NCBI GenBank assembly: GCA_002746795.1
Contig: PDQY01000099.1
Location: forward strand, 20,015 to 84,014
Source: Chloroflexota bacterium
Lineage (GTDB): Bacteria > Chloroflexota > Anaerolineae > Promineifilales > Promineifilaceae
DNA: 64,000 nucleotides
Reading direction: 5' to 3'
Shown here: positions 57,974 to 59,926 of the stretch, piece by piece
Layout: the number at the start of each line of letters is the position of its first letter
How positions within the stretch are numbered: the stretch's first letter is position 1
Translations under genes and position numbers: made by a program
Notes under the pieces: generated by a model
The model's database searches: none
What the model was told of the DNA's origin: nothing
What the model saw: only the letters and a program-made list of their open reading frames with translations

Positions 57974-59926
57974 ATGACCAATCATCAAGCAAAAGTTTGG
58001 CTAGTTTTTATCAGTCTGGGACTTGCCGCGCTGTTATTCACCGCTTGCAGCACAGAAACGTCAACGAATAACGCAACAGCAGAATCCGCTCCCCCCACTG
58101 CGGAAACCCTGACAGAGAATAGGGCGGCAGATACGATTGAACAGGGGGAAGTTCTCAGCGATGTCAGTGATATTTTTGAGGAAGCAGCTGAAAGCAGCCA
58201 GCCTAACCATGACAATGAAGAAATTGCCTTAGTAAACACAGCATATGATGGCAATGTGCCCGTGGGCTTTACCGAAACGGGTAATCCATATCGGGGCAAT
58301 CCCAATGCACCAGTAGTCATTGAGGAGTTTTCCGACTTTCAATGACCGTTTTGCGGCCGGTTTGCGGAGCAAACCCTTACGGAGTTAGACAAAAACCAAA
58401 TCATAAATGGCGACGTTTTATACATTTACTACGACTATCCCCTAAACAGCCATCCTCAAGCGATGGTTTCAGCCAATGCGGCTCGCTGCGCTGGGGAACA
58501 GGCAGCCCCCGCCTATTGGGATATGCACGACATCCTGTTTAACCGTCCCCGGGAATGGAGCAACAACAATGCCACTCGTGAGTTTATTCGGTATGCTGAA
58601 GAGATAGGCCTTGATGTTGATGACTTTACGACTTGTGTCGAAGAAGAGCGGTATTTCGAGCAGATACAATCCAATTTTGAGTATGGCATGAGCAAAGGTG
58701 TTTCTAGCACGCCTTACTTTTTTGTCAACGAGCAGCCTCTTGTGGGGGCACAGCCCACAAATGTGTTCAACGAGGCGATTGCCACTGTTTTGGCAGGGGG
58801 GAAACTGGCCAATGCGGTTCCTGATGCGCCCCCACCACAACCAACTCCAATTACCATTGCTGATGAAGGGGCAGCCGCCGTGTTAGGCAGTAACGATGCC
58901 CCTTACACCATTGTTGAATTTACCAATTATGGTTGCGAACGGTGTGCAGAACAAGCGATTAACACCTTGCCCACAGTTCAAGATTATCTGATCTCACCCG
59001 GCCAAATTCGTTATGTGATTAAGGATTTACCGGGGGAATCTCCAGAATCGCAAATTGCGGCTGTAGCTGCGCGCTGCGCGGGTGAGCAGGATGCAGATGC
59101 CTATTGGCAAATGCATAAGTCTCTGTTCAGAACGCAAGCAGATTGGCTAGAAAGTAATGATGCTGAATCTATGTTTATGGATTTAGCTGATGAACTGGCT
59201 TTAGATGCGGTGGCCTTTGCTGATTGTGTGGGCAGTGGTCAATTCGACGCGGAGTTACAAGCCAATGTCATGGAAGCAAATGAGTTAGACATTCCAGGCT
59301 ATCCCCATTTCGTCATTGAGGGGCAATCGTTGAGCGGCGTCAAACCTAATGCGTTGGCTATTGTGCTTAAATTGCCCATGGATGTTCCTAGGGACACTGG
59401 CGCTTTTGCTATGGGTGATCCTGATGCTCCGATCACAATCATTGAGTATACGGATTATCAATGTCCCTTCTGCACCAGACATTTTGTGGAAACTTTGCCA
59501 TTGCTCAAGGAGAATTTTATTGATACGGGCAAGGTGTATTATGTGGTTAAGGATTTTCCCTTGACCAACATCCATCCTCAGGCAACGAAGGCTGGTGAAG
59601 CGGCACGTTGTGCGGGTGAGCAAGATGCTTACATGCCCATGCATGATGCGATATTTGCAGGGCAAGCAGCCTGGAGTGGGAATCCCGATGCAGCGAATCT
59701 GTTTATCGGTTATGCCGCTGATTTAGGATTGGATAAGGAGGCCTTCTCTGAATGTCTGAATAGTGGTCGCCTGGAAACGGCCGTTCTCGATAACATGAAT
59801 GAGGGCGCGAGCTTTGGCGTCACTGGCACTCCCGCTTTCTTCATCAACGGCATTCTGGTTTCTGGGGCGCTGCCTTATGACTCTTTTGAGCAAGGGCTCA
59901 ACAATATGCTGGCGGAACTGGAATAA
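57974..59926 (+). CDS. Three-domain DsbA-like thioredoxin-fold lipoprotein with in-frame TGA (candidate selenoprotein)
   Basis: 57974-58345 and 58463-59926 are in the same frame; readthrough gives VIEEFSDFQ[U]PFCGRFAEQT...; domain 2 has CERC, domain 3 has IEYTDYQCPFC; N-terminal LFTAC lipobox. Confidence 0.8.
58346..58382 (+). promoter_or_regulatory. Candidate bacterial SECIS-like hairpin directly after TGA (58343-58345)
   Basis: GGTTTGC-GGA-GCAAACC perfect 7-bp stem (58359-58375), outer pairing CCGT (58346-58349) with ACGG (58379-58382); G in first loop positions; loop begins 21 nt after the UGA. Confidence 0.65.

Follow-up and report, generated by a model that had tools for sequence, protein, structure and literature searches.

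The gene described here very probably encodes a selenoprotein, a three-domain lipoprotein thiol-disulfide oxidoreductase in which a single in-frame UGA would be decoded as selenocysteine (Sec), with insertion driven by SelB and a hairpin next to the codon. It lies in a stretch of 64,000 nucleotides from an Anaerolineae genome, to which we refer as the window and whose numbering is used unless another contig is named. Comparisons at the sequence level support the reading of the UGA as Sec, translation of the entire frame, and membership of the product in the family discussed below. An initial annotation had placed two open reading frames, at 57974-58345 and 58463-59926, in one frame, and the TGA at 58343-58345 is indeed the sole interruption in 651 codons; with this codon read as Sec, the product has 650 residues and the Sec is residue 124 (Table 1). 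The TGA takes exactly the place of the first cysteine of a CPFC motif, as becomes apparent when EEFSDFQ-U-PFCGRFAEQT is compared with domain 3 (EYTDYQCPFCTRHFVET). The three DsbA-like domains proposed at the outset are likewise recovered by Pfam family PF13462, which matches in three stretches of the protein, each corresponding to a DsbA fold with CxxC, and the cis-Pro loops read STP/GYP/GTP.

Table 1. Features of the probable selenoprotein gene, in window coordinates.
Feature	Position	Strand	Basis
Probable selenoprotein gene; three DsbA/Thioredoxin_4 domains, predicted lipoprotein	57974..59926	+	Single TGA, rest open; Pfam, NCBIfam
Lipobox Cys25 (LLFTAC-S), predicted lipid anchor	58046..58048	+	Signal helix; C25 nearly invariant in alignment A3
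Domain 1, residues ~104-275; UPFC, STP cis-Pro site	58283..58798	+	PF13462; model pLDDT mostly >85
UGA codon, probably read as selenocysteine U124, residue 1 of UPFC in domain 1	58343..58345	+	TGA/Cys orthologues
bSECIS-like hairpin; stem GGTTTGC/GCAAACC (7 bp), loop GGA (3 nt)	58359..58375	+	Stem conserved in TGA genes; published rules
Domain 2, residues ~305-455; CERC at 58934-58945	58886..59338	+	PF13462; model
Domain 3, residues ~477-648; CPFC at 59462-59473	59402..59917	+	PF13462, residues 478-642; model

Orthologues and the hairpin next to the UGA

We searched 59 related genomes for orthologues, the window's own genome being designated G000. Besides the window gene, two orthologues carry a TGA at the identical codon: one in a genome of the same genus (G001, locus L010; 68-71% identity) and one, partial because of a contig end, in a genome of a different genus (G003, locus L027; ~41-49% identity). 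The other 25 align exactly at this position and hold TGC or TGT, and they are the Cys homologues that the initial annotation had anticipated. Where the locus was checkable (L013, L124, L125, L127, L128, and L130), it is conserved, with mfd and/or pth upstream, which indicates that these are true orthologues. The exchange of Sec for Cys at a redox-active site is a classical selenoprotein criterion. A tree did not distinguish a single from a separate origin of Sec in G003 and the window's genus. Between the window and G001, on which all dN/dS figures rest (the L010-L027 pair, whose coordinates were shifted, was left out), dN is much lower than dS both before and after the TGA, indicating purifying selection.

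The hairpin that had been pointed out just downstream of the codon is present as described, its loop beginning 20 nt after the TGA. All three TGA genes share one and the same stem (consensus GGTTTGC-GG[A/C]-GCAAACC), whereas the seven stem pairs are not preserved at this site in any of the 25 Cys orthologues, L037 alone having a comparable hairpin nearby. Published rules for a bSECIS ask for an apical loop of 3-9 nt, a stem of 4-16 bp, a G in the first two loop positions, a distance of 16-37 nt from the UGA, and an MFE of <= -7.5 (PMC13188914, section 5). The layout here agrees with these rules (loop of 3 nt, GGA; stem of 7 bp; 20 nt), while the energy is borderline, at -8.5 kcal/mol in context and -7.4 for the bare hairpin against the published threshold of -7.5. 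The outer CCGT/ACGG pairing that had been added around the stem did not hold up, as it is not conserved and is absent in G001. Folding of the first 58 nt after the TGA was no better than that of shuffles (z = 0.04). Together, these observations suggest that the signal is carried by the minimal hairpin, and we therefore rely on its conservation, not its energy, as evidence. An equally stable hairpin that satisfies the bSECIS layout rules follows 2.4% of 2500 TGAs in the window, so on its own the hairpin would prove little; that it is confined to the TGA orthologues counts for more. The 11 codons after the TGA show 0-1 synonymous changes relative to G001, and among 554 segments of 11 codons the only one without a synonymous change is that just after the TGA; dS exceeds 1.2 in every other gene segment, with synonymous sites near saturation. 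An Rfam scan of the window at gathering score returned no match.

Selenocysteine machinery and alternative readings of the UGA

The assembly of the window's own genome (2.98 Mb in 179 contigs, 77% complete) encodes SelA (472 bits), SelB (355 bits), and SelD (382 bits); with regard to the full selA/selB/selC/selD set named in the initial annotation, only selC is missing from what is an incomplete assembly. The SelD gene has an in-frame TGA of its own (LLAYASCAG-U-ASK; L122:1531, G000 contig C118). It fits UxxK, the Sec motif listed for selenophosphate synthetase (PMC13188914), so that, judging by this motif, the genome very likely encodes a second selenoprotein. No hairpin was found at the SelD UGA under the simple rule, which shows that likely real cases escape this rule.

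A tRNA-Sec was found neither in G000 nor in G001 of the same genus, and SelA was not found in G001. Most relatives of the bacterial family have a tRNA-Sec, scoring ~59-78 bits. Below the cut-off, the matches in the own genome were to other tRNAs, such as those for Ser, Leu, Arg, Tyr, and Lys; matches to a tRNA-Sec anticodon-arm pattern in G000 and G001 have no tRNA fold, and the one in G003 folds as a tRNA. A gene with an M3-peptidase match adjoins tRNA-Sec in several relatives. This neighbor is not in the G000 assembly, and in G001 the contig stops inside it, on the tRNA-Sec side. Assembly gaps are thus the likely cause of the missing tRNA-Sec in both genomes.

Could the TGA stem from faulty sequencing, or from a nonsense mutation that recently hit an ordinary Cys gene? 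Most orthologues do have Cys codons at the site, and the assembly is fragmented and incomplete. However, the same TGA recurs in two other genomes, one of them from a different genus and with an orthologue only ~41-49% identical, the hairpin is kept only in TGA genes, and the codons downstream are still under purifying selection, which leaves this explanation extremely improbable. Just as hard to credit is that the UGA terminates a short protein and that the downstream frame is translated separately from the in-frame ATG at 58463, since the codons from the TGA to that ATG behave as part of a conserved protein (dN 0.03 and dS 1.27 versus G001), continue the DsbA fold, and hold the second active-site Cys. 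Readthrough with an ordinary amino acid, either Trp or Cys, would be in keeping with the tRNA-Sec missing from the assembly, but it is very unlikely in a genome with SelA, SelB, and a UGA-containing SelD, with a SECIS-like hairpin specific to TGA genes, and with tRNA-Sec in most relatives. The selenoprotein reading of the initial annotation, in contrast, is upheld by the Cys homologues at the UGA, by SelA, SelB, and SelD in the genome, and by the conserved bSECIS-like hairpin.

Family, domain layout, and putative function

The whole protein matches NCBIfam NF041057 ("Rcas_1661 family thioredoxin-like (seleno)lipoprotein") in three stretches with 402 bits against a cut-off of 190, the single domains alone staying below it at 113-143 bits. 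Listed as "DsbG-like protein," a UxxC selenoprotein family, in Table 1 of a 2026 review (PMC13188914), the family is given there with one Sec per protein. DsbA-like selenoproteins had been called a known class, and NF041057 has indeed been curated before as a family of (seleno)lipoproteins. The gene shares with this family a Sec at the first Cys of CxxC and a predicted lipoprotein nature; however, the profile describes one domain of 247 positions, whereas the gene has three in tandem, with Sec only in the first. What stands of the claim that this layout is unusual is the U/C/C arrangement with Sec in domain 1, the sole unusual feature and a modest variation, as three-domain Cys forms are widespread. 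Such forms are common in the window's Anaerolineae family; those at L013, L025, and L034 have the same three domains and the same lipobox, as well as the pth + mfd locus (shown for L013), but carry Cys instead of Sec and no hairpin. In the literature on Rcas_1661 and on Anaerolineae selenoproteins, we found no description of the three-domain protein. The gene is a genuine new example of an already catalogued selenoprotein family, and its novelty was at first overrated.

Within the class, TGA at this Cys is also seen in relatives, some with one domain and some with several. A TGA pattern search across 52 genomes of the bacterial family found such a gene in 11, with the reversed control pattern in none; the three-domain Sec form was seen only in G000, G001, and G003 (cut by the contig end in the last), and most others are single-domain. 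Like the window gene, single-domain Sec DsbA-like proteins (L110, L158, L163, and L166) feature UPFC and, after the UGA, a hairpin of ~7 bp with a 3-nt loop beginning with G, but they have ~240 residues in one domain, an N-terminal hydrophobic helix instead of a lipobox, and the hairpin farther from the UGA. At these loci and at L164, in several genera, the hairpin reads CTGRCGC-G[GT]N-GCGYCAG, with one pair varying between A-T, G-T, and G-C. Another family member (L115; G051:C24, 484-2313) has 609 residues and two in-frame TGAs, giving UPFC at residue 88 and UPAC at residue 272, and L117 and L118 (in G056 and G044) have two domains, with Sec in domain 1 and the CxxC of the second lost (FQSAANR and FQSPENR, respectively).

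A structure model contains three confident DsbA folds (mean pLDDT 83), while its pTM of 0.48 means that the domain arrangement is not fixed by the model. Among PDB structures, each single domain comes closest in fold to BdbD of Bacillus subtilis (3eu4), DsbA of C. diphtheriae (4pwo), and alpha-DsbA1 of Wolbachia (3f4r). Unlike the three-domain gene product, these are single-domain proteins and are not known to contain Sec. We propose that the hairpin just 3' of the UGA recruits SelB and Sec-tRNA(Sec), upon which the ribosome would insert Sec and continue to the 650-residue lipoprotein. Anchored on the outer face of the membrane, this protein would act through the active sites UPFC, CERC, and CPFC of its three DsbA-type domains as an extracytoplasmic thiol-disulfide oxidoreductase, Sec124 attacking to form a mixed selenosulfide with the substrate. 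Its function is likely to be thiol-disulfide exchange outside the cytoplasm, the attack being made by Sec; lipidation, the redox partner, and whether the enzyme works as an oxidase, isomerase, or reductase are inferred. VKOR homologues are encoded in the genome, and re-oxidation of the three-domain protein by VKOR is possible. On G000 contig C16 (538-1479), a VKOR gene comes immediately after a single-domain Cys Dsb gene, the two probably making up an ordinary oxidation pair in this organism. It is tempting to speculate that the three active sites in series form an internal redox relay, in which Sec in domain 1 would let electrons in or out quickly and exchange them with the two Cys domains, although we judge this unlikely. 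If true, it would amount to a cell-surface relay within a multi-domain selenoprotein, for which the literature searched held no description in the NF041057 family.

With the standard code, gene callers break this gene into two pieces, and its active site is lost. The clear local SECIS pattern, with its GC-G[G/U]N-GC apex, may serve as an aid in searching for more selenoproteins in uncultured Anaerolineae. The well-supported pair of Sec and Cys orthologues at one conserved locus, in turn, would allow Sec and Cys to be compared in similar multi-domain oxidoreductases.
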